Source of the DNA: Cloeon dipterum
Lineage: Eukaryota; Arthropoda; Insecta; Ephemeroptera; Baetidae
Direction of reading: 5' to 3'
Assembly (NCBI RefSeq): GCF_949628265.1
Contig: NC_088786.1
Location: 39,887,681-39,951,680 of the forward strand
DNA length: 64,000 nucleotides
The number at the start of each line of letters is the position of its first letter. Within the stretch, counting starts at the first letter, position 1. The notes beneath the pieces are model-generated. The model saw nothing but the letters and a program-made list of their open reading frames with translations. It was not told where the DNA came from and made no database searches. Shown here one piece after another: positions 1,977-48,435 of this stretch. Made by a program: the position numbers and the translations under genes.

Positions 1977-1999
1977 AGAGAAAAAGAGGGGAGTACGCA

Positions 2000-3406
2000 A
2001 TGGCTACAGCACGCAAGGTAAAGCAGCTCCTGCTTTACCTTGCGATTTCAGCGGTTTTTCAACCTAACCAGGTGGTGCGGCGTGTCAACTGTGTCCATGA
2101 ACGTCTGCTGGTGTGGAAACAGCCGTCGGACGGGATGGATGATGCCGACACTGTCCGAGGGCCGAGTTTTCCGGTCTGGATTTTGCTGCTGCACTTCGGA
2201 CGCTTTGATTCTAGAGAAAATCGCATGGCACGCAGGCGACACCGGCAATGCAGGTGCGAGTTACCAAGGCTACGTGCAGGTCTAGACATGATTTACCTTC
2301 CTGGAATTCGCTCGACCCGCTCACCGTTGCAATTCCTGCTAAGTGCCAAAATAATAACAACAGCTACTATAGTGAAAGTGTTTTGCGGTATGGGAATTTA
2401 TTTTCTCATCCTCTTGCTCGCAATGGGGGACATCGAACGGAACCCTGGACCGACATCTGAACTGATTGAGACCCTGAGTAAGCTGCTGGACGAGAAACTG
2501 AAAGTGACTAACGATGCGATTGGGGATCTGCGCGGCGTGGTTGAAGGATTCGGCGATCAGCTAAATGAAATCAAGACCGAAGTTGAAGAGCTGAGAGCAG
2601 AGAAAAATGAACTCGCCAGCCGTGTCGTTCATCTGGAAAAGCGACTGGCCGTGCAGGAATCTGAAAATCGTCGCCGAAATATGGTTATTTTTGGGATCCC
2701 GTCTAACGTTACACTGGAACAAGCCCTTGAAGACGTTCTGTTCAAGCACCTGGAACTGGAGAAGCGCCCACAGGAGCAGCTGGTAGAATCTGCATTTCGC
2801 ACTGGCAGGCCGGACGGTCGTGTTCGTCCCATTGTGGTCCGCTTTTTCAGTCAGGAATACAAAGTTAGAGCGCTGCGGATTGCCTACAAGTTGAAAGGGA
2901 CGAATGTGGTGATTTCGGACGATCTCACACCGGAAGAGCGAGCAGTAAAACGGGAATTAAACACAGCGAGAAAGTCGGCCCTCCAAGCAAGCGTACAAGT
3001 GAAGATGCGCCGCGACCATCTGCTCGTCGCTGGCAAAAAAGTTTATGTCCAGGATACGCGAGTGCTTGGTTGGGTCGAAAAGTACAAACAACCGGGAGTC
3101 CTCCACCATGATGATGATGCAGACGAGTGTGAGAGTGCGTCGGCCCCAGCTGCTGACCGACCAGTGACCAAGAGGAAAAAGCGGAACCGTGCAGCAGCGC
3201 AGCTCTCTCCTGAAGAGCTGCATGGGCCTCCCGAGCCCCAAGCTGGCCCGTCCCATTCGGGTTTTGCCACTGCGCTCCTCAATCAGCCAGAACAAAGCCA
3301 GACAAAGGCGGTGGGCAATCCTCGGAGGGGCAGGTCGGCGCGGAGCATCGAGAGGCTGAAGACCACCGAGGCGGCGAACAGCAGCGGCCAGTCGGACGGG
3401 GAATAA
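2000..3406 (+). CDS. Retrotransposon ORF1 protein with internal 2A-like motif
   Basis: 468 aa. Residues 1-133 form an N-terminal region with hydrophobic patches and a basic stretch (MARRRHRQCRC). Residues 134-151 read YFLILLLAMGDIERNPGP, which fits the 2A consensus D-[VI]-E-x-N-P-G-P with an upstream Leu-rich segment. By the 2A mechanism the ribosome would skip the G150-P151 bond, giving a 150-residue leader and a 318-residue ORF1p. Residues ~153-220 look like a coiled coil. Residues ~221-350 (RRNMVIFGIP, RPIVVRFF, LKGTNVVISDDLTPEER) match the RRM-like and C-terminal regions of L1-type ORF1 (transposase_22) proteins, which are nucleic-acid-binding chaperones. The tail is basic and low-complexity. 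The start is the first AUG of the element. Confidence 0.85.
   Translation: MATARKVKQLLLYLAISAVFQPNQVVRRVNCVHERLLVWKQPSDGMDDADTVRGPSFPVWILLLHFGRFDSRENRMARRRHRQCRCELPRLRAGLDMIYLPGIRSTRSPLQFLLSAKIITTATIVKVFCGMGIYFLILLLAMGDIERNPGPTSELIETLSKLLDEKLKVTNDAIGDLRGVVEGFGDQLNEIKTEVEELRAEKNELASRVVHLEKRLAVQESENRRRNMVIFGIPSNVTLEQALEDVLFKHLELEKRPQEQLVESAFRTGRPDGRVRPIVVRFFSQEYKVRALRIAYKLKGTNVVISDDLTPEERAVKRELNTARKSALQASVQVKMRRDHLLVAGKKVYVQDTRVLGWVEKYKQPGVLHHDDDADECESASAPAADRPVTKRKKRNRAAAQLSPEELHGPPEPQAGPSHSGFATALLNQPEQSQTKAVGNPRRGRSARSIERLKTTEAANSSGQSDGE
2012..2044 (+). other. Perfect 15-bp hairpin at the start of retrotransposon ORF1
   Basis: CGCAAGGTAAAGCAG (2012-2026) is followed by the 3-nt loop CTC and its exact reverse complement (2030-2044). 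It begins 12 nt after the first base of the ORF1 start codon. It would form a very stable stem in the RNA close to the 5' end. Its role is unknown; control of ORF1 translation or an RNA packaging or processing signal are possibilities. Confidence 0.8.
3259..3265 (+). promoter_or_regulatory. Candidate -1 frameshift heptamer between ORF1 and ORF2
   Basis: In ORF1 phase the sequence reads G_GGT_TTT, the X_XXY_YYZ form used for -1 ribosomal frameshifting. A -1 shift here enters the frame of ORF2, which is open from 3214 to 6333. No strong downstream pseudoknot was identified by eye, so this is a hypothesis. Confidence 0.3.
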
Positions 3407-3465
3407 AGAAGCCTGAGCTCTTTGTCAAAGGTGAATCAATTCATTTTCAGTGTGATAAACAGTTT

Positions 3466-6333
3466 TTGCCTACCGATTTTATCAAAATCATTTGTTTGAA
3501 CGCACAATCTATTGCAAATATTAATCACATGAGGTTGCTCAGACACTTCGTATCTAATAATTGCGTAGACATAATCGGAATCTCGGAAACATGGCTAAAA
3601 GAAAAGCATGATATCGACCAACAATTTAAAATTGAGGGTTACAAGTTAGTGCGGCATGACCGGCCTAAAACACGTGGCGGCGGCGTTGCTTTTTATATTA
3701 AAGAGGGTATTAATTTTAAAATCGTGCTGCAGTCAGAGTGTACACTTTCTAGTTCAGCTGAATTCATTTTTCTTGAAATTAAGACAGAATCCAAAAGTTT
3801 ACTGACAGCCATAGTTTACCGTCGCCCCATGAGATGCGTTAATTTTGACGCTTTTTTTCAGACGTTGCACAGCCTATTTCCACTTTTTGATAATTGCGTA
3901 ATAATGGGTGATTTCAATGTTAACTTCGCGGAGCAGTCTGGACAACTCGATGGCCTATTAAATAATTTTAGTGATTTCGCATTGAATCGTTTGCCAATTA
4001 ATGATACTCATGTAGCTTTTAATTCGACTACCACAATAGATGCAATTTTTCTCTCGTCTAATTTGTCATGCGCCGCTTTTGGGAAGTTAGCTAATCCACT
4101 CTCTCACCATAGTGCTCTCTTTGCGATTTTAAACGCCAAGATTGTTTTGAAAGATCAAGTTGTGAGATCCATTCGCGAGTTTCACAAAATTGATCTTGAA
4201 AAACTTCAGCAGAGATCGCATGAGATCGAGTGGCATGAGGGAATGGACGTGGCTTCTCTTGATCAGCGCGTCTCAAATTTTTCAAAAAAACTAATTTCTC
4301 TTTTTGATGAAGTCGCGCCCACAAAGAAAATCGTAAAATCGGTAAAATTTAAACCCAAATTAAAAAGAGACATTGATGAGCTTGCGAGAGAGCGGGACAA
4401 AGCGCGCAAGGTAGCCGAGAAGAACAAGTGTCTCGAGTCATTTAATAAGTATAAATCACTCCGCAATAAGGTTAAACAAAAAACGCTTAATTTCAAAAAG
4501 TCAATAATTTTCCAGTCCTTAAATGAGGTTGCTTCAACTAAGCACATGTGGGGCAAATTGCGTGAGCTAGGGCTGATGAGAGGAAAGACGGGAGGTGCGG
4601 ATTTTCCTATTCCAGTGGATGAGCTGGTTGTTGGGCTCACGGTGCGGCGGCGGGCGGAAGTTTTGAGTCGTATTGACTTGGACTTTCGCCTGCCTCATGC
4701 AATCGTGGGCGGTGAGAAATTATATTTTAGTCATGTCATTCCACTGGAGGTAAAATACGCACTTCGCGGAATAGTCTCCTCTGCTGAAGGAGTGGACGCA
4801 ATTTGTACCAAAATGCTTAAATTGACAGCTGACTCAATTTTGCCATCGTTAACAAATATTGTTAATGCCTCTTTACAAACAGGTCACTTCCCGTCCGAGT
4901 GGAAAAAAGCTATTTTAATGCCTCTACCTAAAGTTAGACACGCGGTTGCTTGTAATGATTTTCGGCCTATTAGCGTCCTGTGCACTGCGTCTAAAGTGCT
5001 TGAAAAAATCGTCCACAACCAGCTGATTACGTACTTAAATATACATAACGTGATAGACGAGTTCCAGTCCGGCTTCCGCAGGCAGCATAGCACGACCACA
5101 GCGCTTTTGAAAATCTCTGAGGACTTGCGGATTTCTAATTTCCGTGGTGAGGTAACCCTTATGGTTTTCCTTGATTTTTCAAAGGCGTTTGATTTGGTCG
5201 ATCACGCTCTGCTGCTCAGGAAGCTGACGCAGCTAAATTTTTCTGATTCAGTTTTAAATTTTTTTAAAAACTTTCTAAGTGAGAGAGAACACGCGATTCG
5301 TGACAAGGACGGAAAATTCTCAAGGTGGGTCCGCATCGAGGCCGGAGTTCCTCAGGGGTCGGTGCTCGGTCCGCTTTTGTTTTCCGTCTATACCCACGAC
5401 GTAGTGTATCTCTTTCAAAATCGGTGTAAGTACCATATGTACGCAGATGATATTCAATTGTATATTAATTGCAAGCCTGAGGAGTTGGAGCACGCTATTG
5501 CGGTTATGAACAATATTTTGTGCGACGTGGTCGCCTGGTCGGAAAAGCACGGTTTAAAGCTCAATCCGCGCAAGACGCAGGTGCTAGTTGTTGGCTCTGA
5601 GAGATCGCACTCAAAGCTAAACTTGGCGCAGTTAAGTAAAGTTAAAATGAACGACACTGAAATTCAATTCAGTGATGAAGTGGAAACTGGCTGTGTTGAA
5701 TTTGACTATAGTGACAAAGTAAAAAATTTAGGAGTTGTTTTTGACAAGCATCTGAAGTGGGTGGGTCAAATTTCTAAAATATTTCAAAAAGTTTATGGTT
5801 CACTTAAAAATGTAGAAAAATTTCGAAATGTCACGCCAGAAAAAATAAGAATTAAACTAGTAAAAACTCTAATGCTACCCCATTTTGATTATGGTGATAT
5901 CGTGTTCTGTAACCTTAGCGCGGAGCAACTGAATAAGCTGCAAGTTTTACAGAACAACCTCATGAGGTATATATTTGACGTCAAACGCGGGCAAAACTTG
6001 TCATCTTTGTATAAAAAGTGTCGTATCTTAAAGATTACAGACAGACGTCAATTGCATGTATTAACACAAACACATAAGATTTTGTACAATAATTGCCCTG
6101 AATATTTAAAATGTTATGTTACCCCCATGCGCGATGTTGACTTGATAGGCAGGTCCAGAGCTCATCGATTGAGGCTTCTGGCTCCGCGTGTAAATGTTAC
6201 TGTGCCTGAACAGTGCTTCCAAGTGCAGTGCTATCGTCATTGGAATAGTCTTTCACCAAATTTGTGTATGAACGAGAATTCAAGTGCATTTAAGAAGAAA
6301 ATTGAAGAAGCAATATTCTCAAGCTACCATTAA
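3466..6333 (+). CDS. Retrotransposon ORF2: AP endonuclease plus reverse transcriptase
   Basis: About 955 aa counted from 3466, where the codon is TTG, not ATG. The first in-frame ATG is at 3529. The frame is already open from 3214, overlapping ORF1 in the -1 frame. The N-terminal endonuclease/exonuclease/phosphatase domain shows SETWL, the YRRP loop, GDFN and the SHHSALF histidine box. The reverse transcriptase follows, with FRPISVL, QSGFRRQHST, DFSKAFD, GVPQGSVLGPLLF and catalytic YADD (YADDIQLY). A ~250-residue C-terminal region (KNLGVVFD, PHFDYGDIVF) is typical of CR1/Jockey-like ORF2. It would nick target DNA and prime reverse transcription there. No stop or frameshift is seen. Confidence 0.92.
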   Translation: MPTDFIKIICLNAQSIANINHMRLLRHFVSNNCVDIIGISETWLKEKHDIDQQFKIEGYKLVRHDRPKTRGGGVAFYIKEGINFKIVLQSECTLSSSAEFIFLEIKTESKSLLTAIVYRRPMRCVNFDAFFQTLHSLFPLFDNCVIMGDFNVNFAEQSGQLDGLLNNFSDFALNRLPINDTHVAFNSTTTIDAIFLSSNLSCAAFGKLANPLSHHSALFAILNAKIVLKDQVVRSIREFHKIDLEKLQQRSHEIEWHEGMDVASLDQRVSNFSKKLISLFDEVAPTKKIVKSVKFKPKLKRDIDELARERDKARKVAEKNKCLESFNKYKSLRNKVKQKTLNFKKSIIFQSLNEVASTKHMWGKLRELGLMRGKTGGADFPIPVDELVVGLTVRRRAEVLSRIDLDFRLPHAIVGGEKLYFSHVIPLEVKYALRGIVSSAEGVDAICTKMLKLTADSILPSLTNIVNASLQTGHFPSEWKKAILMPLPKVRHAVACNDFRPISVLCTASKVLEKIVHNQLITYLNIHNVIDEFQSGFRRQHSTTTALLKISEDLRISNFRGEVTLMVFLDFSKAFDLVDHALLLRKLTQLNFSDSVLNFFKNFLSEREHAIRDKDGKFSRWVRIEAGVPQGSVLGPLLFSVYTHDVVYLFQNRCKYHMYADDIQLYINCKPEELEHAIAVMNNILCDVVAWSEKHGLKLNPRKTQVLVVGSERSHSKLNLAQLSKVKMNDTEIQFSDEVETGCVEFDYSDKVKNLGVVFDKHLKWVGQISKIFQKVYGSLKNVEKFRNVTPEKIRIKLVKTLMLPHFDYGDIVFCNLSAEQLNKLQVLQNNLMRYIFDVKRGQNLSSLYKKCRILKITDRRQLHVLTQTHKILYNNCPEYLKCYVTPMRDVDLIGRSRAHRLRLLAPRVNVTVPEQCFQVQCYRHWNSLSPNLCMNENSSAFKKKIEEAIFSSYH

Positions 6334-6574
6334 TTATTACTTCCTTCCAAATGTTGTTCCTACATAATTGTATCATTACTTTATGGATGTGTGCTGATTT
6401 GGGGCAGAGTTGCCCTGTCAGCCCATAATAAACTTAAATTTTGAAACTAAATATTTGCATTTTCAAAAAATTACAAAAACAATACAGAAAAATTTCAACT
6501 TGTTAAAACGCAGTACAAAAATTTATAAATTAAAAACGCACATCGCCTGCTTTTATCTAAAAATATTAAATATT

Positions 6575-8004: not shown

Positions 8005-9060
8005 TCACTTTGCTACAGTTCCAGGACATCTTCCATACCGGTTGTGCTTATAAATTGCACCAAGGCTCATTTCTCTACCACATTTGAGACATTTTTCCAT
8101 TTTGTGATACATCTTGACATGCTGTTTCAAATCTGCCTCTGAAGCAAACATCTTGCCACACTTCTGCAGTCCACATTTGATTTTCTTCTCCGAATGCTTA
8201 TATCGAATATGTTTATTCAAGTTACCCTTATGCTCTGCTGAGTAATGGCAAAAGTGGCATTGGAATTCCTTTCGTTCCTGATGCTCCTGTTGCTCGTGCT
8301 CGATTCTCTTTTGAACAGAGGCAAAATATTCCTTGCAACCAGAGATGGTGCACTTTTCCAACTTTCCATTGTGCTTCTTCTGGTTGTGGTCGAAAATATT
8401 GAGATACACCTTGTTGCATTCGCAGCATTTGCCTCTTTGGTCACGTTTTTTTATGTCATTTGATCCAGTTTTGGAAGGAGCAGAAGTTTTTCTCCCTTCT
8501 TCCATCTCTTTGATATCCTCCTTTCCACGATCAATGTTTCCCTTCATATTCAGGTCTTTGTTTTCTCCTGACGTGGAATCTTGCTCATTGTTCAGTATTT
8601 CCGTGCTATGAACTTGGAATACTTCCTCGAGATTCAGGAATTGATTATTTTCCTGGAAGAGATCTTTTTGTTCAACCATATCTCCCAGCATCAGCAATCC
8701 ATCACTTTCGGCCTCATGACTGTTATCCAATTAAATAATGAGAAATTCTTTTATAAATTGAAAATAAATTAAAATCGGCACCTTTCTTTTTCTTGTGGAA
8801 TTTGAACGAGTTCACTGCTTTTCGTATCAGTTTCCGCGCATGGAAGGTCGAGAACTTGCTCAGATTCCAGGAATTGCATCAACACCTGCAAGAGATCTTC
8901 ATTTTGATCTCCCTCTTCTGGCCGAAATTCATCTCTTCCGGCATGAGGGCTACAATAAAAAATATTAACTTACATAATTTTATAAAGTAATTTTGTACCT
9001 GTTTTCTTCTAGAGGAACTGGAAAGAAGGGTTCGCCTAACGTTCCTTTTTCGTGAGACAT
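8005..9060 (-). CDS. ZF2: cluster zinc-finger protein, type A, intact
   Basis: Exon 1 8999-9060, exon 2 8782-8949, exon 3 8005-8719; spliced product 314 aa, in frame throughout. Exon 1 gives MSHEKGTLGEPFFPVPLEEN. Exon 2 is acidic. Exon 3 opens HEAESDGLLMLGDMVEQKDL, then an Asn/Glu/Lys linker. Fingers in order: C-x2-C-x9-H-x4-H (CCECNKVYLNIFDHNQKKH); C-x4-C-x12-H-x4-H; C-x2-C-x12-H-x4-H; C-x4-C-x12-H-x4-H; and a terminal C-x2-C-x11-H-x5-C. Predicted contact residues at helix positions -1/2/3/6 are HGNK in finger 3 and SADQ in finger 4. Sequence-specific nuclear DNA binding is inferred from the fingers. The acidic N-terminus could be a protein-interaction or activation region. The ATG preceding exon 3 in frame (MDNS..) is intronic read-through and was not used as a start. 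Confidence 0.85.
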
Positions 9061-11708: not shown

Positions 11709-12875
11709 TTCGTCGTCTGTGATGTCTTTGGGGTCTCCGAACAGCAGCGGGCGCTGGTCTCGTCCCGGCAGCGGCGGCGAAGAAGACGACGAGCCGGACG
11801 CGTGGCGGGCGACGCTGCCGGTGCTGGAGGACAGCGCCGAGCCGGACGCGTCTGCGTCGGCGTCGACGTCGGCGGTCAGGGCCGGCAGCCGCACGCGTAT
11901 TCCCAGCCTGCGCAAGCCGCGCAGCCGCACGCCCAGCGAGGACCGCACGCCCACCTCCTCCAAGGGCATCACCGAGCTGGACCGCAAGGTCGAGCAGGCC
12001 GCCAGGGAGGCCCGCAGGCAGTGCCGATGCGAGGACGAGGCCGGTGCAGCACCGGACGCCGACGGCAAAAACCCCAAATGCGCCGACAAGCTCAAGGTCA
12101 GACGCCTGGGCGGAGGAAAGTACAACATTGCTGGACGCAACGTCTACGTCAGAGTGAGTTTCAGGGTTTTTCTGTTTTAAAAATTCCTCAGGGTTGAATA
12201 AATTAATTTTTCAGGTCGAAAAACGGTTTTCGGTGCGCAAAACATTTGAATATTTTGGTTGGTAGTGCGCATGCGTCATCCCTCTGACGTCACAGCAATG
12301 CTTCTTGGCAGCTTGGGACAGCTGTGACGTCAGAGGGGAACGCATGCGCAGTAGCGATTTTAAGATTCAAACGTTTTGCGCGCCAAAGCAACGTGCGTTT
12401 TGCTTTGCGCTGCTTCTCGCACGTCAAAAAACATTTTTAAATCGAAATAATAGTTTCAACCCCCTTTTTCAACCCCCAGGAATCGATTGAAACGTACAAA
12501 AATGTTAAAATTATTTTTAAAATTATAAAAAAACAATTTTTAGTAAAAAAATTAAATTTAAAGATCAAATTGACTGAATTTAATAATTAAACCACCCGTA
12601 AATTGCAGCTGCTGAAGGGGAGGCACATGATGGTGCGCGTGGGCGGCGGGTGGGACACGCTGGAGCATTTCCTGGAGCGGCACGACCCGTGCCAGGTGCG
12701 CGTGCTGGGCCGCGGCGACTCGTCGGCGGGCAACTCGCGCACCAACAGCCGCTCGAGCGGCATCAACCGGCTCGGCCTGTCCAACAGCAGCAGACACTCG
12801 ACGCCCGCCTCGCCCAGCGAAGGCTTCCTGCACATCCGGGCCAAGTACCGCAGCCCTCCGCCGGCCAGAAGTTGA
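11709..12875 (+). CDS. GAS2-like terminal exons, copy 1 (GAR domain)
   Basis: Two exons, 11709-12153 and 12609-12875, joined in phase 0. The upstream acceptor is CTTTCCAG and the donor is AGA|GTGAGT. The first exon begins with one base completing an upstream codon, so the start lies elsewhere. The 237-residue fragment has an acidic Ser-rich stretch ([10 protein letters not shown]), a basic TxIP-type segment ([14 protein letters not shown], resembling EB1-binding motifs) and then the GAR domain. That domain reads [24 protein letters not shown], then [20 protein letters not shown] and FLERHDPC. The C-terminus ends [17 protein letters not shown]2 proteins link actin (CH domain) to microtubules (GAR domain); no CH exon occurs in the window. 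The copy is either an alternative 3' terminal cassette of a larger plus-strand gene or a 5'-truncated duplicate. Its GC-rich coding DNA stands out from the AT-rich surroundings. Confidence 0.8.
12235..12381. repeat. Palindromic element in the GAS2 intron, copy 1
   Basis: A core stem of ~30 bp (12266-12296 with 12320-12350) contains GCATGCGT and TGACGTCA. An outer pair, GCGCAAAAC..TTTGAAT (from 12235) with ATTCAAA..GTTTTGCGC (to 12381), extends the symmetry to arms of ~60 nt. The loop is ~24 nt. Confidence 0.8.
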
Positions 12876-15146: not shown

Positions 15147-16095
15147 CTCAGCAGAACGATTTCTATCCCCTAACAAGCTCAATGAACAATAAAGATGGGA
15201 GAAATCGTCCAATTCAAGAAATGAAATGTAAAATATTCACGGTATTTTCATTTCAATTTGTAAAAAAATTTGTTAAAAAAAGACACACTCATTATTGTTT
15301 GGGGCATTTCTAAAGATAAAATTCTCGAAAAATATTTCAAAATAGAAGCATTCATGCGCGGACATAGATGAAATGACTTAACTTAACGAAAATGGATATT
15401 TAACAATGATGATGAATAATTTCTAAATTTGCCTGGATAAAAATTCAACGAGGAATGATTTGAAATTGGAAAAAAACAAGATATATAACCAGAAAAATTA
15501 AATGTGTTCACCGCAGAAATGAACTAACTCACAACAATTTCACTGTTTAAAATTCGTCTTAAAATTTGCGTTAAAATGTAAAAAACAATTGCTAAAATTT
15601 TCTGTCGAAAAAGCTGATTTAAAATGAGACTCTCAATTAGTTGACGCGAGTTACAAATTAATTTAAAGTAAATCAAAATATAAAGTTTTTTGTTACACAC
15701 ACATGGATTCACCTTTAAACGTGAAACAAAAAGAAATAGAAATTGGAGTTATATAGAAAATTTGATTACTCGTCGCTTAATGGGTAGGTTTTTCTTCCCC
15801 TTCGACAATCGTGATGCGGACGCGTCCAGCTGATCCTCTTTCTTCGACGACAATAAGCAGCATTCGAGGTGGTAAACGATATCTCAATTTTTTTCTCTAG
15901 AATTTTTGGTGAAATATATGTCAATAGATATTTTCCACTCTTTGAAAATACCAAAATCAAATGAAAGGATGGAATTTATGGTATGGCCTAAGGGGAATTT
16001 TGTGAGAAATAGGGAAGGTTGTTCTTTGTTATATAAAAAGCGTTTTCTCTTTTTGGTTGCACTCAAAATAAAAGAGTACGATTTTATGGAATTTA
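15147..16095. other. Spacer upstream of ZF3
   Basis: AT-rich non-coding DNA with the promoter-like motif at 15231-15250 and the recurrent ~110-bp block at 15765-15880. It is most similar to 62920-63890, upstream of ZF15. Its last 8 bases are the left target-site duplication of the second retrotransposon. Confidence 0.65.
15231..15250 (-). promoter_or_regulatory. Conserved upstream motif of ZF3
   Basis: Minus-strand TGAAAATACCGTGAATATTT, 85 nt 5' of the start codon; it shares the A-to-G variant (ACCGTG) only with ZF15. Confidence 0.45.
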
Positions 16096-16209
16096 GTTTC
16101 AAAATTTAAGTTTATTATGGGCTGACAGGGCAACTCTGCCCCAAATCAGCACACATCCATAAAGTAATGATACAATTATGTAGGAACAACATTTGGAAGG
16201 AAGTAATAA

Positions 16210-19079
16210 TTAATGGTAGCTGGAGAATATTGCTTCTTCAATTTTCTTCTTAAATGCACTTGAATTCTCGTTCATACACAAATTTGGTGAAAGACTATTC
16301 CAATGACGATAGCACTGCACTTGGAAGCACTGTTCAGGCACAGTAACATTTACACGCGGAGCCAGAAGCCTCAATCGATGAGCTCTGGACCTGCCTATCA
16401 AGTCAACATCGCGCATGGGGGTAACATAACATTTTAAATATTCAGGGCAATTATTGTACAAAATCTTATGTGTTTGTGTTAATACATGCAATTGACGTCT
16501 GTCTGTAATCTTTAAGATACGACACTTTTTATACAAAGATGACAAGTTTTGCCCGCGTTTGACGTCAAATATATACCTCATGAGGTTGTTCTGTAAAACT
16601 TGCAGCTTATTCAGTTGCTCCGCGCTAAGGTTACAGAACACGATATCACCATAATCAAAATGGGGTAGCATTAGAGTTTTTACTAGTTTAATTCTTATTT
16701 TTTCTGGCGTGACATTTCGAAATTTTTCTACATTTTTAAGTGAACCATAAACTTTTTGAAATATTTTAGAAATTTGACCCACCCACTTCAGATGCTTGTC
16801 AAAAACAACTCCTAAATTTTTTACTTTGTCACTATAGTCAAATTCAACACAGCCAGTTTCCACTTCATCACTGAATTGAATTTCAGTGTCGTTCATTTTA
16901 ACTTTACTTAACTGCGCCAAGTTTAGCTTTGAGTGCGATCTCTCAGAGCCAACAACTAGCACCTGCGTCTTGCGCGGATTGAGCTTTAAACCGTGCTTTT
17001 CCGACCAGGCGACCACGTCGCACAAAATATTGTTCATAACCGCAATAGCGTGCTCCAACTCCTCAGGCTTGCAATTAATATACAATTGAATATCATCTGC
17101 GTACATATGGTACTTACACCGATTTTGAAAGAGATACACTACGTCGTGGGTATAGACGGAAAACAAAAGCGGACCGAGCACCGACCCCTGAGGAACTCCG
17201 GCCTCGATGCGGACCCACCTTGAGAATTTTCCGTCCTTGTCACGAATCGCGTGTTCTCTCTCACTTAGAAAGTTTTTAAAAAAATTTAAAACTGAATCAG
17301 AAAAATTTAGCTGCGTCAGCTTCCTGAGCAGCAGAGCGTGATCGACCAAATCAAACGCCTTCGAAAAATCAAGGAAGACCATAAGGGTTACCTCACCACG
17401 GAAATTAGAAATCCGCAAGTCCTCAGAGATTTTCAAAAGCGCTGTGGTCGTGCTATGCTGCCTGCGGAAGCCGGACTATGGAACTCGTCTATCACGTTAT
17501 GTATATTTAAGTACGTAATCAGCTGGTCGTGGACGATTTTTTCAAGCACTTTAGACGCAGTGCACAGGACGCTAATAGGCCGAAAATCATTACAAGCAAC
17601 CGCGTGTCTAACTTTAGGTAGAGGCATTAAAATAGCTTTTTTCCACTCGGACGGGAAGTGACCTGTTTGTAAAGAGGCATTAACAATATTTGTTAACGAT
17701 GGCAAAATTGAGTCAGCTGTCAATTTAAGCATTTTGGTACAAATTGCGTCCACTCCTTCAGCAGAGGAGACTATTCCGCGAAGTGCGTATTTTACCTCCA
17801 GTGGAATGACATGACTAAAATATAATTTCTCACCGCCCACGATTGCATGAGGCAGGCGAAAGTCCAAGTCAATACGACTCAAAACTTCCGCCCGCCGCCG
17901 CACCGTGAGCCCAACAACCAGCTCATCCACTGGAATAGGAAAATCCGCACCTCCCGTCTTTCCTCTCATCAGCCCTAGCTCACGCAATTTGCCCCACATG
18001 TGCTTAGTTGAAGCAACCTCATTTAAGGACTGGAAAATTATTGACTTTTTGAAATTAAGCGTTTTTTGTTTAACCTTATTGCGGAGTGATTTATACTTAT
18101 TAAATGACTCGAGACACTTGTTCTTCTCGGCTACCTTGCGCGCTTTGTCCCGCTCTCTCGCAAGCTCATCAATGTCTCTTTTTAATTTGGGTTTAAATTT
18201 TACCGATTTTACGATTTTCTTTGTGGGCGCGACTTCATCAAAAAGAGAAATTAGTTTTTTTGAAAAATTTGAGACGCGCTGATCAAGAGAAGCCACGTCC
18301 ATTCCCTCATGCCACTCGATCTCATGCGATCTCTGCTGAAGTTTTTCAAGATCAATTTTGTGAAACTCGCGAATGGATCTCACAACTTGATCTTTCAAAA
18401 CAATCTTGGCGTTTAAAATCGCAAAGAGAGCACTATGGTGAGAGAGTGGATTAGCTAACTTCCCAAAAGCAGCGCATGACAAATTAGACGAGAGAAAAAT
18501 TGCATCTATTGTGGTAGGCGAATTAAAAGCTACATGAGTATCATTAATTGGCAAACGATTCAATGCGAAATCACTAAAATTAGTTAATAGGCCATCGAGT
18601 TGTCCAGACTGCTCCGCGAAGTTAACATTGAAATCACCCATTATTACGCAATTATCAAAAAGTGGAAATAGGCTGTGCAACGTCTGAAAAAAAGCGTCAA
18701 AATTAACGCATCTCATGGGGCGACGGTAAACTATGGCTGTCAGTAAACTTTTGGATTCTGTCTTAATTTCAAGAAAAATGAATTCAGCTGAACTAGAAAG
18801 TGTACACTCTGACTGCAGCACGATTTTAAAATTAATACCCTCTTTAATATAAAAAGCAACGCCGCCGCCACGTGTTTTAGGCCGGTCATGCCGCACTAAC
18901 TTGTAACCCTCAATTTTAAATTGTTGGTCGATATCATGCTTTTCTTTTAGCCATGTTTCCGAGATTCCGATTATGTCTACGCAATTATTAGATACGAAGT
19001 GTCTGAGCAACCTCATGTGATTAATATTTGCAATAGATTGTGCGTTCAAACAAATGATTTTGATAAAATCGGTAGGCAA
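16210..19079 (-). pseudogene. Retrotransposon ORF2, single frameshift
   Basis: The endonuclease and the start of the reverse transcriptase read from 19079 to 17433. The rest, including YADD, reads from about 17436 to 16210 in another frame. The break is a 2-nt TA insertion at about 17476-17479, just inside the QSGFRRQHS motif. Otherwise it is nearly identical to the intact ORF2 at 3466-6333. It would yield a truncated endonuclease-only protein. Confidence 0.88.
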
Positions 19080-19138
19080 AAACTGTTTATCACACTGAAA
19101 ATGAATTGATTCACCTTTGACAAAGAGCTCAGGCTTCT

Positions 19139-19332
19139 TTATTCCCCGTCCGACTGGCCGCTGCTGTTCGCCGCCTCGGTGGTCTTCAGCCTCTCGATGC
19201 TCCGCGCCGACCTGCCCCTCCGAGGATTGCCCACCGCCTTTGTCTGGCTTTGTTCTGGCTGATTGAGGGGCGCAGTGGCAAAACCCGAATGGGACGGGCC
19301 AGCTTGGGGCTCGGGAGGCCCATGCAGCTCTT
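19139..19332 (-). pseudogene. Retrotransposon ORF1 C-terminal remnant
   Basis: Only the last ~64 codons of ORF1 (basic, Ser/Arg-rich tail up to SGQSDGE) remain because of the 5' truncation. The 2A motif, coiled coil and RRM-like region are absent. Confidence 0.85.
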
Positions 19333-20438: not shown

Positions 20439-21515
20439 TCACTTTGCTACCGTTCCAGGACATCTTCCATATCGATTGTGATCATACAAACCACGATGGC
20501 TCATTTCCCTGCCACACGTGGGACATTTTACCATTTTGTGATAGCTCCTGACATGATCTCTCAAATAAACCTCCGAAGCAAACATCTTGCCACACTTCTG
20601 CTGTCCACATTTGATTTTCTTCTCCGAATGCTTCAGAAGAACATGTCTTTTCAAGTGACTCTTCTGCTCTGTCGAGTAATGGCAAAGTTGGCACTGGAAT
20701 TGCTTTCGTTCCTGATGCTCATCTTGCTCGTGATCGATTCTCTTTTGAGCAGAGGCGAAATAGTTCCTGCAACCAGAAATGGTGCACTTTTTTAACTTTC
20801 TATTGTGCTTCTTCTGGTTGTGTTGGAAAATATCGAGATACACCTTGATGCATTCGCAGCATCTGCCACTATAGTCTCGTTTTTTACTGTGGTTTGATCC
20901 AGTTTTGGAAGGAGCAGAAGATTTTCTCTCTTCTTCCACCTGCTCTTGGATATCTTCCATTCCACGATCAATGTTTTCCTTCATATTCAGGATTTTGTTT
21001 TCTCCTGACGGTTGTCTTGAAGTGGAATCCTGCTCATTGTTCAGTAATTCTGCGCTATGAACTTGCAATACTTCCTCGAGATTCAGGAATTGTTTATTGT
21101 CCTGGAAGAGATCTTTTTGTTCAACCATATCTCCCAGCATCAGCAATCCATCACTTTCGGCCTCATGACTGTTATCCAATTACAAAATTAGAAATTAAAA
21201 TTCTTTTATAAATTGAAAATAAATTAAAATCGGCACCATTCTTTTTCTTGTGGAATTTGAACGAGTTCACTGCTTTTCGTATCAGTTTCCGCGCATGGAA
21301 GGTCGAGAACTTGCTCAGATTCCAGGAATTGCATCAACACCTGCAAGAGATCTTCATTTTGATCTCCCTCTTCTTGCCGAAATTCATCTCTTCCGGCATG
21401 AGGGCTACAATAAAAAATATTAACTTACATAATTTTATAAAGTAATTTTGTACCTGTTTTCTTCTAGAGGAACAGGAAAGAAGGCTTTGTTTGACGTTTC
21501 TTTTTCGTGAGACAT
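20439..21515 (-). CDS. ZF4: cluster zinc-finger protein, type A, intact
   Basis: Exon 1 21454-21515, exon 2 21237-21404, exon 3 20439-21168; 319 aa in frame. Exon 2 ends GAATG|GT where other type A copies have GAAAG|GT, changing the junction codon from Ser to Cys. Contact residues are QSHR in finger 3 and SVYD in finger 4 (SEVYLRDH). The terminal C2HC segment MVKCPTCGREMSHRGLYDHN is shared almost exactly with type B ZF12, although the N-termini differ in type, pointing to exchange within exon 3. Confidence 0.85.
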
Positions 21516-23771: not shown

Positions 23772-24938
23772 TTCGTCGTCTGTGATGTCTTTGGGGTCTC
23801 CGAACAGCAGCGGGCGCTGGTCTCGTCCCGGCAGCGGCGGCGAAGAAGACGACGAGCCGGACGCGTGGCGGGCGACGCTGCCGGTGCTGGAGGACAGCGC
23901 CGAGCCGGACGCGTCTGCGTCGGCGTCGACGTCGGCGGTCAGGGCCGGCAGCCGCACGCGTATTCCCAGCCTGCGCAAGCCGCGCAGCCGCACGCCCAGC
24001 GAGGACCGCACGCCCACCTCCTCCAAGGGCATCACCGAGCTGGACCGCAAGGTCGAGCAGGCCGCCAGGGAGGCCCGCAGGCAGTGCCGATGCGAGGACG
24101 AGGCCGGTGCAGCACCGGACGCCGACGGCATAAACCCCAAATGCGCCGACAAGCTCAAGGTCAGACGCCTGGGCGGAGGAAAGTACAACATTGCTGGACG
24201 CAACGTCTACGTCAGAGTGAGTTTCAGGGTTTTTTTCTGTTTTAAAAATTCCTCAGGGTTGAATAAATTAATTTTTCAGGTCGAAAAACGGTTTTCGGTG
24301 CGCAAAACATTTGAATATTTTGGTTGGTAGTGCGCATGCGTCATCCCTCTGACGTATCAGCAATGCTTCTTGGAAGCTGGGGCAGCTGTGACGTCAGAGG
24401 GGGACGCATGCGCAGTAGCGATTTTAAGATTCAAACGTTTTGCGCGCCAAAGAAACGTGCGATTTGCTTTGCGCCGCTTCTCGCACGTCAAAAACATTTT
24501 TAAATCGAAATCATAGTTTCCACCCCCTTTCTCAACCCCCAGGAATCGATTGAAACGTACAAAAATGTTAAAATTATTTTTAAAATTATAAAAAACCAAA
24601 TTTTTAGCAAAAAATTGAATTTAACGATCAAATCGACCGTTTTTAATAATTAAACCACCCGTAAATTGCAGCTGCTGAAGGGGAGGCACATGATGGTGCG
24701 CGTGGGCGGCGGGTGGGACACGCTGGAGCATTTCCTGGAGCGGCACGACCCGTGCCAGGTGCGCGTGCTGGGCCGCGGCGACTCGTCGGCGGGCAACTCG
24801 CGCACCAACAGCCGCTCGAGCGGCATCAACCGGCTCGGCCTGTCCAACAGCAGCAGACACTCGACGCCCGCCTCGCCCAGCGAAGGCTTCCTGCACATCC
24901 GGGCCAAGTACCGCAGCCCTCCGCCGGCCAGAAGTTGA
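23772..24938 (+). CDS. GAS2-like terminal exons, copy 2 (GAR domain)
   Basis: Exons 23772-24216 and 24672-24938, the same lengths (445 and 267 nt) and phases as copy 1. The only protein difference from copy 1 found by eye is K to I in DG[K/I]NPK, between the CRC motif and the GAR core. The GAR core and C-terminus are identical. As with the other copies the start codon and CH domain are missing. Confidence 0.8.
24300..24445. repeat. Palindromic element in the GAS2 intron, copy 2
   Basis: Same inverted repeat as in copy 1. The left TGACGTCA half is altered to TGACGTATC here, weakening the stem slightly; the GCATGCGT arms are kept. Confidence 0.75.
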
Positions 24939-29867: not shown

Positions 29868-30949
29868 TCACTTTGCTACCGTTCCAGGACATCTTCCATA
29901 CCGATTGTGATCATACAAACCAAAATTGCTCATTTTTCTATCACAAGTGGGACATTTTACCATTTTGTGATACTTCCTGACATGCTGTTTCAAATCTGAT
30001 TCTGAACCAAACATCTTGCCACACTTCTGTTGTCTGCATTTGATTTTTTTCTCTGAATGCTTCACTCGGATATGAGCTTTCAAATTACCCTTCTGCTCTG
30101 CCGAGTAATGGCAAAATTGGCACTGGAATTCCTTTCGTTCCTGATGCTCCTGTTGCTCGTGCTCGATTCTCTTTAGAGCAGAGGCGAAATATTTCCTGCA
30201 ACCAGAAGAGGTGCACTTCATCAACTTTCCATTGTGCTTGTTCTTAGAGTGACAGGAAATTTTGAGATACACCTTATTGCACTCGCAGCATTTGCCACTT
30301 TCATCGCGTTTTTTACTGTGGTTTGATCCAGATTTAGAAGAAGCGAAGGATTTTCTCTGTAATTCAATTTCTTGGATTTCGCCCTTTCCACGACCATTGT
30401 TTTCCTTCAAATTCGAGTCTTGGTTTTCTCCTGATGACGGTCCCGGAGTCGGATCTTGCTCACTGTTCGTTGTTACAGCGCATTGAATTTGGAGCTCCTC
30501 CTCCAATCCAAAGAATTGGTTGATTTCCGGAAAAAGCTGATTTCGATCAAGCTCTTCTAGCATTAGCAAACCATCATTGATTTTGGCCTCAGAGCTGACG
30601 TATCAAAATATAAAATCAGAAAAACTTTTCGAAAAAAAAATACAAAATATTACACCTCTGCTCTTTTTCTGGTGGAATAGGAGCAAGCTCACTGCTTGTA
30701 ACATCGACTTCCGACCATTGAATTTCGATTCCTGGCTGGAATTCCAGGAATTCCATTACTTCCTGCCAGAGATCCTCATTTTGATCTGCCTCCTCTTGCC
30801 TAAATCCCTCTGTTCCGGCTTCAGGGCTACAATCAAATAGAAAATCAACCAAATTTCATATTTAATTATCCAAGTAGCAATTTTTACCTGTATACTTCTA
30901 TTGGAACTGTAAAAAAGGCTTTTCCGGACGTTTCTTCATTGGGAGACAT
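29868..30949 (-). CDS. ZF6: cluster zinc-finger protein, type B, intact
   Basis: Exon 1 30888-30949 (MSPNEETSGKAFFTVPIEVY), exon 2 30656-30826 (one codon longer at its 3' end than usual), exon 3 29868-30594; 319 aa. Finger 1 helix is KISCHSKNKH. Contact residues are QGNA in finger 3 and SSDQ in finger 4 (GSESDLKQH). It follows ZF5 without a GAS2 copy between, so it breaks the A-GAS2-B alternation. Its C-terminus (NFGLYDHNRYGRCPGTVAK) groups with ZF4, ZF8 and ZF12. Confidence 0.83.
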
Positions 30950-34977: not shown

Positions 34978-36049
34978 ATGTCTCTCAACGAAGATGCGGC
35001 CGGCGAAGCCTTTTATCCAGTTCCACAAGAAGAAAACAGGTAAAAATTTGCCAATTGAAAATTTAAATTTGGTATATTTTCTATTTGATTGCAGCCATGA
35101 AGACAGAACAGTAGGATTTTGGCAAGAAGCAGGGAGTGATCAAAATAATGAACTTCTCTGGCACGACATTATTGAAATTCTGGAGCGCGAGCAAGGAATC
35201 AAAATTCCAAGCGCGCCGGAAATTGATATAACATGCAATGAGCTTGATCAAATTCCACTAGAAAAAACGAGGTAATTAATTTAATTTGATTTCATTTTGG
35301 AAAGTATTGCTAATTTTCTAATTGGAATCAGCTCTGAAGCCAAAATCGATGACGGTTTACTGTTTCTAAAAGAGATTGAACAAAAGGAAATTAACCAATT
35401 CCAGGATATCGAGGAAGCATTCCAAATTCAGTGCGCTAAAACAATGAACAATGAACAAGATCCCATTCTGGAACCTTCATCAGGAGAAAACAAAGACTTG
35501 AATCTGAAGGAAAACAATGGGCGTGGAAAGGACGAAATCCAAGAAGTGGAATTACAGACAAAATCTTCTACTCCTTTTAGAACTGGATCAAACGGCAGTG
35601 TAAAACAAAACAAAAGAGGCAAATGCTGCGAATGCAACAAGATGTATCTCGAAGTTTTCAAACACTCCAGTTACACGCACAATGGAGAGTTAAAAAAGTG
35701 CACCGCCTCACTTGATTGCAAGAAATATTTCGCCTCAGTTCAAAAGAGAATCGAGCACGAGCAAAAGGAGCATCAGGAACGAAAGCAATTCCAATGCCAA
35801 TTTTGCCATTACTCGACAGGGTGGAAGACAGACTTGAATAGACATGTTCTTACTATGCATTCGGAGAAGAAAATCAGATGTGGACAGCAGAAGTGTGGCA
35901 AGATGTTTGCTTCAGAAAGAGATTTGAAGAAGCATATCAGGAAGTATCACAAAATGGTAAAATGTCCCACGTGTGGCAGGGAAATGAGCTATCATGGTTT
36001 GTATGATCACAATCGGTATGGAAGATGTCCTGGAACTGTAGCAAAGTGA
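34978..36049 (+). CDS. ZF8: cluster zinc-finger protein, type B, inverted, intact
   Basis: Exon 1 34978-35039 (MSLNEDAAGEAFYPVPQEEN), exon 2 35095-35271, exon 3 35332-36049; 318 aa, all GT/AG sites present. It is the only plus-strand paralog. Finger 1 is CCECNKMYLEVFKHSSYTH. Contact residues are WTDR in finger 3 and SRDK in finger 4. Only ~77 nt of the usual 5' flank remain before the foldback, so the shared upstream motif is missing and expression may have changed or been lost. The reading frame remains intact despite this. Two AATAAA-bearing 3' elements follow; one is at 36320-36325. Confidence 0.85.
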
Positions 36050-37687: not shown

Positions 37688-38759
37688 TCACTTTGCTGCC
37701 GCTCCAGGACATCTTCCATACAAGTTGTGTAAATTCATTGCATTCCGGCTCATTTTTCTATCACAAGTCGGGCATTTTTCCATTTTGTGAATCATCTTGA
37801 CATGAGTTTTCAAATTTGCCTCTGAAGCAAACATCTTGCCACACTTCCGCTGTCCACATCTGACTTTCTTCTCCGAATGCTTCAGAAGAACATGAGATTT
37901 CAAGTTACCCTTCTGCACTGCCGAGTAATGGCAAAATTGGCACTGGAATTTCTTTCGTTCCTGATGTTCCTGTTGCTCGTGCTCGATTCTCTTTTGAACT
38001 GAGGCGAAATATTCCTTGCAACCTAATGCGGTACACTTTTCCAACTTTCCATTGTGCTTCCTCTGGTTGTGATCGAACATATAGAGATACACTTTGTTGC
38101 ATTCCCAGCATTTGCCACTACGGTCTGGTTTTTTTAAGTCATTTGATCCAGTTTTGGAAGGAGTAGAAGATTTGCTCTCTTCTTCCATCTCTTGGATATC
38201 CTTCTTTCCACGATCAATGTTTTCCTTCATATTCAGGTCTTTGTTTTCTCCTGACGGTTGTCTTGAAGTGGAATCTTGCTCATTGTTCAGTATTTCCGCG
38301 CTATGAACTTGGAATACTTCCTCGAGATTCAGGAATTGATTATTCTCCTGGAAGAGATCTTTTTGTTCAACCATATCTCCCAGCATCAGCAATCCATCAT
38401 TTTCGGCCTCATGACTGTTTTCCAATTACAAAATTAGAAATTCTTTTATAAATCGAAAAAAAAATTAAAATTGGCACCTTTCTTTTTCTTGTGGAATTTG
38501 AACGAGTTCACTGCTTTTCATATCAGCAGTTTCCGCGCATGGAAGGTCGAGAACTTGCTCAGATTCCAGGAATTGCATCAACACCTGCAAGAGATCTTCA
38601 TTTTGATCTCCCTCTTCTTGCCGAAATTCACCTCTTCCGGCATGACGGCTACAATAAAAAATATTAACTTACATAATTTTATAAAGTAATTTTGTACCTG
38701 TTTTCTTCTAGAGGAACTGGAAAGAAGGCTTTGTCTGACGTTTCTTTTTCGTGAGACAT
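37688..38759 (-). CDS. ZF9: cluster zinc-finger protein, type A, intact
   Basis: Exon 1 38698-38759, exon 2 38478-38648, exon 3 37688-38414; 319 aa. Finger 1 has WECN in place of the usual CECN (KCWECNKVYLYMFDHN), leaving the C-x2-C pair intact. Contact residues are QGNS in finger 3 and SANT in finger 4; finger 4 matches type B ZF14. The terminal finger is CPTCDRKMSRNAMNLHNLYG, with H and C ligands retained. Confidence 0.85.
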
Positions 38760-41586: not shown

Positions 41587-42752
41587 TTCGTCGTCTGTGA
41601 TGTCTTTGGGGTCTCCGAACAGCAGCGGGCGCTGGTCTCGTCCCGGCAGCGGCGGCGAAGAAGACGACGAACCGGACGCGTGGCGGGCGACGCTGCCGGT
41701 GCTGGAGGACAGCGCCGAGCCGGACGTGTCGGCGTCGACGTCGGCGTCGGCGGTCAGGGCCACCAGCCGCACGCGCATTCCAAGCCTGCGCAAGCCGCGC
41801 AGCCGCACGCCCAGCGAGGACCGCACGCCCACCTCCTCCAAGGGCATCACCGAGCTGGACCGCAAGGTCGAGCAGGCCGCCAGGGAGGCCCGCAGGCAGT
41901 GCCGATGCGAGGACGAGGCCGGTGCAGCACCGGACGCCGACGGCAAAAACCCCAAATGCGCCGACAAGCTCAAGGTCAGACGCCTGGGCGGAGGAAAGTA
42001 CAACATTGCTGGACGCAACGTCTACGTCAGAGTGAGTTTCAGGGTTTTTTTCTGTTTTAAAAATTCCTCAGGGTCGAAATTAATTTTTCAGCTCGAAAAA
42101 CGGTTTTCGGTGCGCAAAACATTTGAATATTTTGGTTGGTAGTGCGCATGCATCATCCCTCTGACGTCACAGCAATGCTTCTTGGCAGCTGGGACAGCTG
42201 TGACGTCAGAGGGGAACGCATGCGCAGTAGCGATTTTAAGATTCAAACGTTTTGCGCGCCAAAGCAACGTGCGTTTTGCTTTGCGCTGCTTCTCGCACGT
42301 CAAAAAACATTTTTAAAACGAAAAAATAGTTTCAACCCCCTTTTTCAACCCCCAGGAATCGATTGAAACGTACAAAAATGTTAAAATTATTTTTAAAATT
42401 ATAAAAAACCACATTTTTAGCAAAAATATTAAGTTTAACGATCAAATTGACTGTTTTTAATAATTAAACCACCCGTAAATTGCAGCTGCTGAAGGGGAGG
42501 CACATGATGGTGCGCGTGGGCGGCGGGTGGGACACGCTGGAGCATTTCCTGGAGCGGCACGACCCGTGCCAGGTGCGCGTGCTGGGCCGCGGCGACTCGT
42601 CGGCGGGCAACTCGCGCACCAACAGCCGCTCGAGCGGCATCAACCGGCTCGGCCTGTCCAACAGCAGCAGACACTCGACGCCCGCCTCGCCCAGCGAAGG
42701 CTTCCTGCACATCCGGGCCAAGTACCGCAGCCCTCCGCCGGCCAGAAGTTGA
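41587..42752 (+). CDS. GAS2-like terminal exons, copy 3 (GAR domain)
   Basis: Exons 41587-42031 and 42486-42752. Copies 3 and 4 share ATSRTRIPS where copies 1 and 2 have AGSRTRIPS, so there are two sublineages. The Ala/Ser/Thr codon run reads [12 protein letters not shown] here. The second exon is identical to the other copies. Start codon and CH domain are absent. Confidence 0.8.
42112..42257. repeat. Palindromic element in the GAS2 intron, copy 3
   Basis: Same inverted repeat as copy 1 with both TGACGTCA sites intact and a single change in the left GCATGC arm (GCATGCATC). Confidence 0.78.
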
Positions 42753-47366: not shown

Positions 47367-48435
47367 TCACTTTGCTACAGTTCCAGGACATCTTCCATAC
47401 CGGTTGTGCTTATAAATTGCACCAAGGCTCATTTCTCTACCACATTTGAGACATTTTTCCATTTTGTGATACATCTTGATATGCCTTTTCAAATCTGCCT
47501 CCGAAGCAAACATGTTGCCACACTTCTGCTGTCCACATCTGATTTTCTTCTCCGAATGCTTCACTCGAACATGTCTTTTCAAGTCACTCTTCTGCTCTGC
47601 CGAGTAATGGCAAAATTGGCAGCAGAATTTCTTTCTTTCCGAATGCTCCCGTTGCTCGTGCTCGATTCTCTTTTGAACAGAGGCAAAATATTCCTTGCAA
47701 CCAGAGATGGTGCACTTTTCCAACTTTCCATTGTGCTTCCTCTGGTTGTGGTCGAAAATATTGAGATACACCTTGTTGCATTCGCAGCATTTGCATCTTT
47801 TGTCTTGTTTTTTTATGTCATTTGATCCAGTTTTGGAAGGAGTAGAAGTTTTTCTCTCTTCTTCCGCCTCATGGATATCCTCCTTTCCACGATCAATGTT
47901 TCCCTTCATATTCAGGTCTTTGTTTTCTCCTGACGGTTTTCCTGAAGTGGAATCTTGCTCATTGTTCAGTATTTCCGCGCTATGAACTTGGAATACTTCC
48001 TCGAGATTCAGGAATTGATTAATTTCCTGGAAGAGACCTTTTTGTTCGACCATATCTCCCAGCATCAGCAATCCATCATTTTCTGCCTCGTGACTGTTAT
48101 CCAATTACAGAATTAGAAATTCTTTTATAAATTGAAAAAAGAATTAAAATTGGCACCTTTCTTTTTCTTGTGGAATTTGAACGAGTTCACTGCTTTTCGT
48201 ATCAGTTTCCGCGCATGGAAGGTCGAGAACTTGCTCAGATTCCAGGAATTGCATCAACACCTGCAAGAGATCTTCATTTTGATCTCCCTCTTCTTGCCGA
48301 AATTCATCTGTTCCGGCATGAGGGCTACAATAAAAAATATTAACTTACATAATTTTATAAAGTAATTTTGTACCTGTTTTCTTCTAGAGGAACTGGAAAG
48401 AAGGCTTCGCCTGACGTTTCTTTTTCGTGAGACAT
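47367..48435 (-). CDS. ZF11: cluster zinc-finger protein, type A, intact, mosaic
   Basis: Exon 1 48374-48435, exon 2 48157-48324, exon 3 47367-48093; 318 aa. The N-terminus and the terminal finger (MEKCLKCGREMSLGAIYKHN) match ZF2. Fingers 3-4 (QSDR and SADR) match its neighbour ZF10 almost base for base over ~140 bp. This is best explained by local gene conversion. All zinc ligands are kept. Confidence 0.85.

Follow-up and report, generated by a model that had tools for sequence, protein, structure and literature searches.

A mayfly non-LTR retrotransposon with a 2A motif behind a conserved ORF1 leader and a candidate -1 frameshift site before ORF2

We describe a retrotransposon in a 64,000-nucleotide (nt) stretch of the mayfly Cloeon dipterum (contig NC_088786.1; this whole stretch is called the window) whose first open reading frame (ORF1) carries a 2A-like motif, DIERNPGP, at the end of a 150-residue leader. 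Judged by its domains, the element is an apurinic/apyrimidinic endonuclease (APE)-type retrotransposon without long terminal repeats (non-LTR) and with two reading frames; ORF2 carries both an AP endonuclease and a reverse transcriptase, as expected of an APE-type non-LTR element. From this arrangement we consider it quite probable that one mRNA gives rise to a leader, an ORF1 protein (ORF1p) and an ORF1p-ORF2p fusion, by 2A-directed ribosome skipping (StopGo) and then -1 frameshifting. The presence of 2A in non-LTR elements is already known. What appears to be new is the combination of a long, selected leader and a 2A before a LINE-1-like ORF1p with a shift site before ORF2.

In the decoding that we propose, initiation would be at the first AUG, which lies ~14 nt inside the 5' end, and the basic leader, with its hydrophobic segments near both ends, would be made first. 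At DIERNPG/P, the nascent chain in the exit tunnel would block the Gly-Pro bond; the leader would be released and translation would continue, giving a free ORF1p (coiled coil plus RNA-recognition motif, RRM) that begins with proline. Towards the end of ORF1, where GGGUUUU is followed by a conserved stem, a minority of ribosomes would slip on this heptamer by -1 into ORF2. The product of the slip would be an ORF1p-ORF2p fusion with endonuclease and reverse transcriptase. The leader itself may be a membrane- or endoplasmic reticulum (ER)-directed peptide, able to carry an unskipped fraction of ORF1p along with it.

The 2A motif and the conserved leader

A sequence-only reading of the window had placed a 2A-like motif within positions 2384-2455 (residues 129-152), and it is present there: YFLILLLAMGDIERNPGP (YFLILLLAMG-DIERNPGP) forms ORF1 residues 134-151, at nt 2399-2452. 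The motif is not a product of chance, with D[VI]ExNPGP expected 1.2e-6 times per ORF1 from the residue composition of ORF1 itself. In the six frames of the window, DIERNPGP is the sole occurrence of [DN]xExNPGP. The genome searched comprised 190 Mb in 10 contigs, five of 33-43 Mb, and all copy counts are lower bounds. A degenerate DNA pattern for D[VI]ExNPGP matched it 19 times, compared to 0 matches with a reversed control pattern, and 17 of the 19 matches are copies of the families of this element. The two strays have a stop within the motif (L030) or lie in a frame of 22 amino acids (aa) (L038). The looser pattern DxExNPGP added 2 matches (L048 and L049), both reading DNELNPGP, in short frames (18 and 24 aa). 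These two sites (G000:C3:883901 and 894208) are 10 kb apart in opposite orientation and are preceded by an alanine-rich stretch.

A search with the leader returned 20 matches representing at least 19 copies, two of the matches being parts of one broken copy: 8 of family A (the window copy included), 6 of family B, 3 of family B', a decayed B-like copy (L019) and 1 of family C. NPGP is intact in 18 of these 19; L019 loses the frame after NP. A search with the family C ORF1 found one more copy that reaches the 2A, the decayed C-like L061, which reads GNNELNPGT. NPGP is thus kept in 18 of 20 copies and both exceptions are decayed, the reverse of the loss from most copies that, according to the sequence-only reading, would speak against a 2A. 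The core reads DIERNPGP in A, DIETNPGP in B and B', and NIEPNPGP in C (as GNIEPNPGP). Each of these satisfies the definition (D/G/C/N)(V/I)ExNPGP to which the 2A core has been widened (PMC12846837; papers are cited by PubMed Central number for the passages concerned). Asparagine stands in the first core position of L061 too, and so seems to predate the single C copy. The leads of A (LLLAMG) and C (ILLASG) fit, by eye, a published leucine-rich upstream class ('LLLLSG-like') that ends in (A/S/C)G (PMC12846837). With a canonical core, a glycine-ending lead of this type and the retention of NPGP, the interpretation of the motif as a 2A holds up well, and it is very likely that StopGo takes place at DIERNPG/P.

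The leader and 2A are shared by three families with 44-48% ORF1 identity to the family of the window copy, and leader identity to that of the window is 40-43%. Family A is young, because seven of its ORF1s differ by only 0-6 per 1404 nt. In a search with the ORF1 body, 19 of 26 matches reached within 11 residues of the body start, and 18 of those 19 have the leader. The exception is L058 (C4:33857194; G000:C4:33857150-33858200), a distant, decayed relative of the ORF1 body that is open for 169 aa. Its body match is preceded by 638 nt in which neither leader nor NPGP is recognisable; it could be a relative that lacks the leader, a copy too decayed to show one, or perhaps part of a host gene. 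Two B' copies, L017 and L018 (G000:C6:120015 and 125706), lie 5.7 kb apart on a small contig with identical ORF1 and upstream flank and are perhaps a tandem duplication. No relatives were confirmed in the viral_contigs collection.

Up to the proline, the leader is 150-153 residues long with a net charge of +8 to +14, and in every family a second hydrophobic peak stands directly before the 2A (mean Kyte-Doolittle hydropathy 2.0-2.4 over 17 residues). It had been described as lacking a recognised homologue. This holds for Pfam, where no match was found at E 1 or better, and fails in that the leaders of two sister families are homologues. The proposed division of ORF1, with a leader of 150 aa ahead of a coiled-coil/RRM ORF1p, agrees with our profile search, in which a profile of six ORF1s found human LINE-1 ORF1p at E 1.4e-5. 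The match supports a body after the 2A that is predicted to consist of a coiled coil and, behind it, an RRM-like fold, of the LINE-1 ORF1p type. The AlphaFold model of ORF1 (6 sequences) has a mean pLDDT of 47.8 overall and below 50 for residues 1-156, at which the leader is uninterpretable.

Codons were compared among five representatives (L011, L013, L021, L017 and L026) of the 16 ORF1s that are open from the AUG; L016, L019 and L027/L028 were excluded, as an internal deletion or frameshift breaks their leader or ORF1. Selection was read from one family pair, B versus B', because synonymous sites are near saturation in the others. In this pair, the leader has 25 synonymous and 21 nonsynonymous differences, a nonsynonymous-to-synonymous ratio (w, by NG86) of 0.25 (bootstrap 0.13-0.48, binomial p 3e-5) that matches the 0.247 of the ORF1 body. 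Over the 2A region (last 30 columns, 29 codons), there are 8 synonymous differences and 1 nonsynonymous (p 7e-5), or 8 and 2 in a window one column longer. Without the first 25 and last 30 columns, w is still 0.28 (p 0.002), and the leader is therefore kept as a protein. By this comparison purifying selection acts on the leader as strongly as on ORF1p, and more tightly over the 2A.

The two conserved hydrophobic segments make a targeting role plausible, and we give even chances to a leader that is membrane-directed. The sequence-only reading had suggested that the leader targets the protein when skipping fails; as a dual-targeting signal, it would send unskipped ORF1p to the ER or a membrane and leave skipped ORF1p cytosolic. 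This is a possibility that we hold tentatively. A basic n-region and hydrophobic N-terminal segment occur in all families, and there is precedent in the 2A signal sequences of sea urchin NLR proteins, where a 2A doubles as a signal sequence and skipped and unskipped products go to different places (PMC4981915). However, the leader is modelled with very low confidence, and the 2A does not lie inside the signal-like segment but more than 100 residues further downstream.

The junction of ORF1 and ORF2

The ORF2 frame is -1 relative to ORF1 and is open across the last ~57-99 ORF1 codons in all families, with ORF2 intact in this frame in A, B and C. In the window it is open from 3214 to 6330 and overlaps the last 63 ORF1 codons (3214-3406). 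Its first AUG, at 3529, is within the endonuclease domain, past the strand that we take to bear the conserved Asn of the endonuclease fold. No AUG precedes the endonuclease domain in the ORF2 frame of A, B or C; B' has one shortly before it.

Within the overlap stands a candidate -1 shift site, the heptamer G_GGT_TTT, at ORF1 codon 420-424 in A, A2, B and B', with G_GAT_TTT in C. All 18 leader-bearing copies checked have it (17 GGGTTTT, 1 GGATTTT); body fragments short of the leader were mostly not fetched and are outside this count. GGGTTTT is also retained in the truncated second copy of the window (16092-19331, minus strand). ORF1 of family A contains only one canonical X_XXY_YYZ heptamer, and it is inside the overlap; A and B shared a canonical heptamer there in 44 of 5000 independent synonymous recodings. 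Stimulatory RNA structures of -1 sites lie 5-9 nt downstream. Here, a 7-bp stem begins 8 nt downstream of the heptamer, and 6 of 6 rows keep it paired. Synonymous divergence of ORF1 between families drops to 0.24-0.45 in the overlap, from 0.60-0.70 over the preceding 100 codons, a fall that would be expected from dual coding or from an RNA signal. Among known sites, G_GGU_UUU is one of the shiftiest heptamers, and G_GAU_UUU is the site of pea enation mosaic virus (PMC5009743).

Several observations weigh against a shift at this site. Variation in the stem is one-sided only (two changes), the downstream fold is not better than shuffles (z -0.3 to -1.6), and the selection data from the overlap do not single out the ORF2 frame. 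A decayed fragment (L063) is without the heptamer. In B and B' another GGGTTTT occurs in ORF1 outside the site, and the canonical heptamer of C lies away from the site, where GGATTTT fits only a published umbravirus variant (PMC5009743). A pseudoknot in the loop of the frameshift stem, seen by eye only, was dropped. We judge it fairly likely, on these sequence grounds, that -1 frameshifting occurs at the heptamer.

It is unlikely that ORF2 is instead reached by termination-reinitiation or by non-AUG initiation. Reinitiation has been reported or proposed in other non-LTR elements, SART1 and LINE-1 (PMC5972666), and a TTG is present after the ORF1 stop and ahead of the endonuclease domain, where B' has an AUG. 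However, the window ORF2 frame offers no AUG before 3529, the conserved stretch contains the heptamer whereas the surroundings of the stop codon vary between families, and the ORF2 frame is -1 and open over the overlap in all families.

The 5' end and the points against skipping

The ends of the family A element were set where copy flanks stop agreeing, in comparisons of copies at the 5' and 3' sides. The 3' end is shared by the window copy, the second copy in the window and 6 of the 7 copies retrieved; for L056 the retrieved stretch stops short of it. At the other end, all 19 leader-bearing copies (8 A, 10 of the B group, 1 C) diverge within about 3 nt of GAGGGGAG or its equivalent, and represent 18 independent 5' ends since L017 and L018 share one flank. 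Because the copies diverge just before GAGGGGAG, ~14 nt 5' of the AUG, the mRNA very probably has no AUG ahead of that of the leader. This short 5' untranslated region (UTR) with a hairpin behind it and the -1 arrangement of ORF2 are additions to the sequence-only reading.

The hairpin, a perfect 15-bp inverted repeat in the leader codons, was spotted first and tested afterwards. In A, synonymous recodings folded as well in 1 of 8000 (ORF1 codon usage) and 0 of 8000 cases (uniform usage), two runs on the same sequence, and the hairpin is beyond what the coding sequence explains. Under the same two usages, the counts per 4000 recodings were 10 and 2 in B, 5 and 1 in B', and 513 and 127 in C. 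Synonymous divergence of A from B or B' is lowest in columns 1-25; in the other family pairs, values equally low or lower occur in the ORF1/ORF2 overlap or in another stretch. Across five sequences, 84% of the pairs are kept, and covariation is not above shuffles. According to Kozak, a hairpin ~14 nt past an AUG reportedly aids its recognition. Within the leader codons, a downstream promoter element seen by eye was inconsistent across families and was dropped, and an Rfam search of 1960-2500 for hepatitis delta virus (HDV)-like and other known RNAs gave two weak matches, none near the gathering score.

One could ask if the leader is conserved for a function in DNA or RNA (a promoter or 5' RNA structure) instead of for its peptide, which the 2A would merely discard. 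With a 5' UTR of ~14 nt, an internal promoter would need mostly coding sequence, and columns 1-25 combine the lowest synonymous divergence (A versus B or B') with a hairpin beyond coding expectation; the 5' end of L1Tc holds both an internal promoter and a ribozyme (PMC4748587). Nevertheless, we find this explanation improbable, given the low w of the leader without its two ends, the weakness of the hairpin in C, and covariation that does not exceed shuffles.

Some points weigh against StopGo itself. The family B lead (ILISMM) has M and not G directly before D. D-to-N changes swapped into foreign 2As gave only modest activity (PMC12846837), and 2A is inhibited by some translocated upstream proteins (PMC2978324). 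In-frame Met codons stand at window residues 131 and 142, shortly before the 2A, with none there in family C; an internal start at such a place could yield a nearly leaderless ORF1p without skipping. The alternative of a motif with little or no activity, and of ORF1 as a single 468-aa protein with a membrane-anchored N-terminus, would draw on the same inhibition by translocated proteins, on the modest activity of N and on the departures of C from the D consensus and of B from the preceding G, but is very improbable, since the 2A stretch is more constrained than the whole leader in B versus B', NPGP is lost only from two decayed copies, and natural N variants are highly active, above 95%, in their natural contexts (PMC12846837).

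The element, its surroundings and known systems

Features of the window copy and its surroundings are collected in Table 1. The copies are dispersed and share a common 3' end. The second copy in the window (16092-19331, minus strand) is 5'-truncated, has a broken ORF2 and is flanked on both sides by TAAATTCCA, as seen by eye; in other copies, target duplications are short or not evident. The solved structures closest to ORF2 by sequence are R2 proteins. The style of the sequence and the absent poly(A) presumably recall CR1 and L2 elements, as a resemblance and not a clade placement.

Table 1. Coordinates of features in the window, with the basis of each assignment
Feature	Position	Strand	Basis or remark
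Whole element copy, family A	1986..6451	+	5' end GAGGGGAG, 3' end ...AATAAACTTAAATTTTGAAACTAAA, without poly(A)
5' UTR, only ~14 nt	1986..1999	+	flank divergence of leader-bearing copies
ORF1, 468 aa	2000..3406	+	ORF list; frame open from AUG in 16/19 leader-bearing copies
Leader, residues 1-150	2000..2449	+	predicted StopGo release after Gly150; conserved across families
Perfect 15-bp inverted repeat / RNA hairpin, 3-nt loop	2012..2044 (2012-2026/2030-2044)	+	begins 12 nt after A of AUG
N-terminal hydrophobic segment LLLYLAISAVF, signal-like, after basic n-region	2027..2059	+	hydropathy peak in all families
Hydrophobic L-rich 2A lead YFLILLLAMG	2399..2428	+	overlaps each family's strongest leader hydropathy peak; YFLI invariant
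2A core octapeptide DIERNPGP	2429..2452	+	predicted skip between Gly150 and Pro151
Coiled coil of ORF1p	2456..2677	+	LINE-1 ORF1p profile match; helix 153-226 in otherwise low-confidence model
RRM-like and C-terminal-domain-like part of ORF1p	2681..3058	+	LINE-1 ORF1p match to profile position 322; modelled strands and helices
ORF2, -1 frame	3259..6333	+	1024 open codons, heptamer to stop
Candidate -1 shift heptamer G_GGT_TTT	3259..3265	+	ORF1 codons 421-422
5' arm of conserved 7-bp stem	3274..3280	+	8 nt after heptamer
3' arm of conserved 7-bp stem	3325..3331	+	pair count
AP endonuclease domain PF03372	3517..4098 (as matched)	+	E 1.6e-8
Reverse transcriptase PF00078	4951..5736	+	E 2.2e-38
Small 3' UTR hairpin GGGCA/TGCCC	6402..6415	+	by eye, unscored; present in family B too
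Zinc-finger-like frames	8005-8730, 20439-21179, 29868-30569, 35297-36049, 37688-38425	mostly -	by eye
Zinc-finger-like frames, continued (and others)	47367-48104, 50321-51073, 53698-54438, 59428-60183, 61845-62549	mostly -	by eye

Elsewhere in the window are clustered, mutually similar frames of ~230-250 aa, zinc-finger-like in appearance, most of which end in GRCPGTVAK or a variant of it. Four near-identical copies of another reading frame (11719-12180, 23782-24330, 41597-42142 and 57041-57502, plus strand) are open on both strands. The telomere patterns TTAGG and TTAGGN gave no arrays in the genome, and a PF00115 search gave a single match, which fell below the cut-off and was broken by stops.

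These findings touch two questions, namely how a second protein is made from one non-LTR mRNA and why some of these elements carry a 2A of viral type. Our speculation, which we rate as likely to be wrong as right, is that the element is decoded from a single mRNA in the manner of an RNA virus: StopGo would shed a membrane-type leader, a -1 shift would set the ratio of ORF1p to fusion, and the hairpin would aid recognition of the start codon without scanning. If both recoding steps work, the ratio of Gag-like to Pol-like product would be set by frameshifting, in the fashion of retroviruses. Since three families with intact ORFs keep the leader, 2A and shift site, the recoding steps and the function of the leader are testable with short reporters. 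No description of this combination of leader, 2A and shift was found among titles and abstract openings in searches of an open-licence library, a scope that leaves subscription papers and preprints outside.

The closest known systems each share part of this arrangement. Odon et al. 2013 reportedly found 2A in the APE-type non-LTR clades Rex1, Crack, L2, L2A, CR1 and Ingi, and are said to have found it correlated with one-ORF elements. Those elements and ours have in common an AP endonuclease, a reverse transcriptase and a D[VI]ExNPGP 2A in the coding sequence; unlike them, as reportedly described, ours has two ORFs, a 2A 150 residues into ORF1, and ORF2 in the -1 frame behind a heptamer. The 2A of L1Tc, from Trypanosoma cruzi, sits near the N-terminus, and in LINE-1 we know of neither a leader nor a 2A. 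LINE-1 ORF1p (PDB 2ykp, 2yko) has the coiled coil and RRM of the profile match above, but LINE-1 ORF2 is proposed to be reached by unconventional reinitiation (PMC5972666). Like our element, L1Tc carries a 2A and packs regulatory signals at its 5' end; its first 77 nt contain an HDV-like ribozyme and a downstream promoter element (PMC4748587), whereas no Rfam ribozyme reaches threshold here. In the sea urchin NLR proteins, a hydrophobic N-terminal leader is likewise joined with a 2A, but as a 26-aa 2A/signal on a cellular protein (PMC4981915), compared to 150 aa on a mobile element. For HeT-A, a telomeric non-LTR element of Drosophila, expression of gag is reported to need frameshifting; there the shift serves gag, no reverse transcriptase is encoded, and the cited passage mentions no 2A (PMC5009743). 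Cardioviruses combine StopGo and -1 frameshifting within one coding sequence, but they are RNA viruses in which the shift comes very close after StopGo and leads to quick termination (PMC5009743). In the mayfly element, the predicted shift is instead ~270 codons past StopGo and leads into the polymerase, and, if both steps work, a eukaryotic mobile element would be using the cardiovirus pair of recoding tricks.

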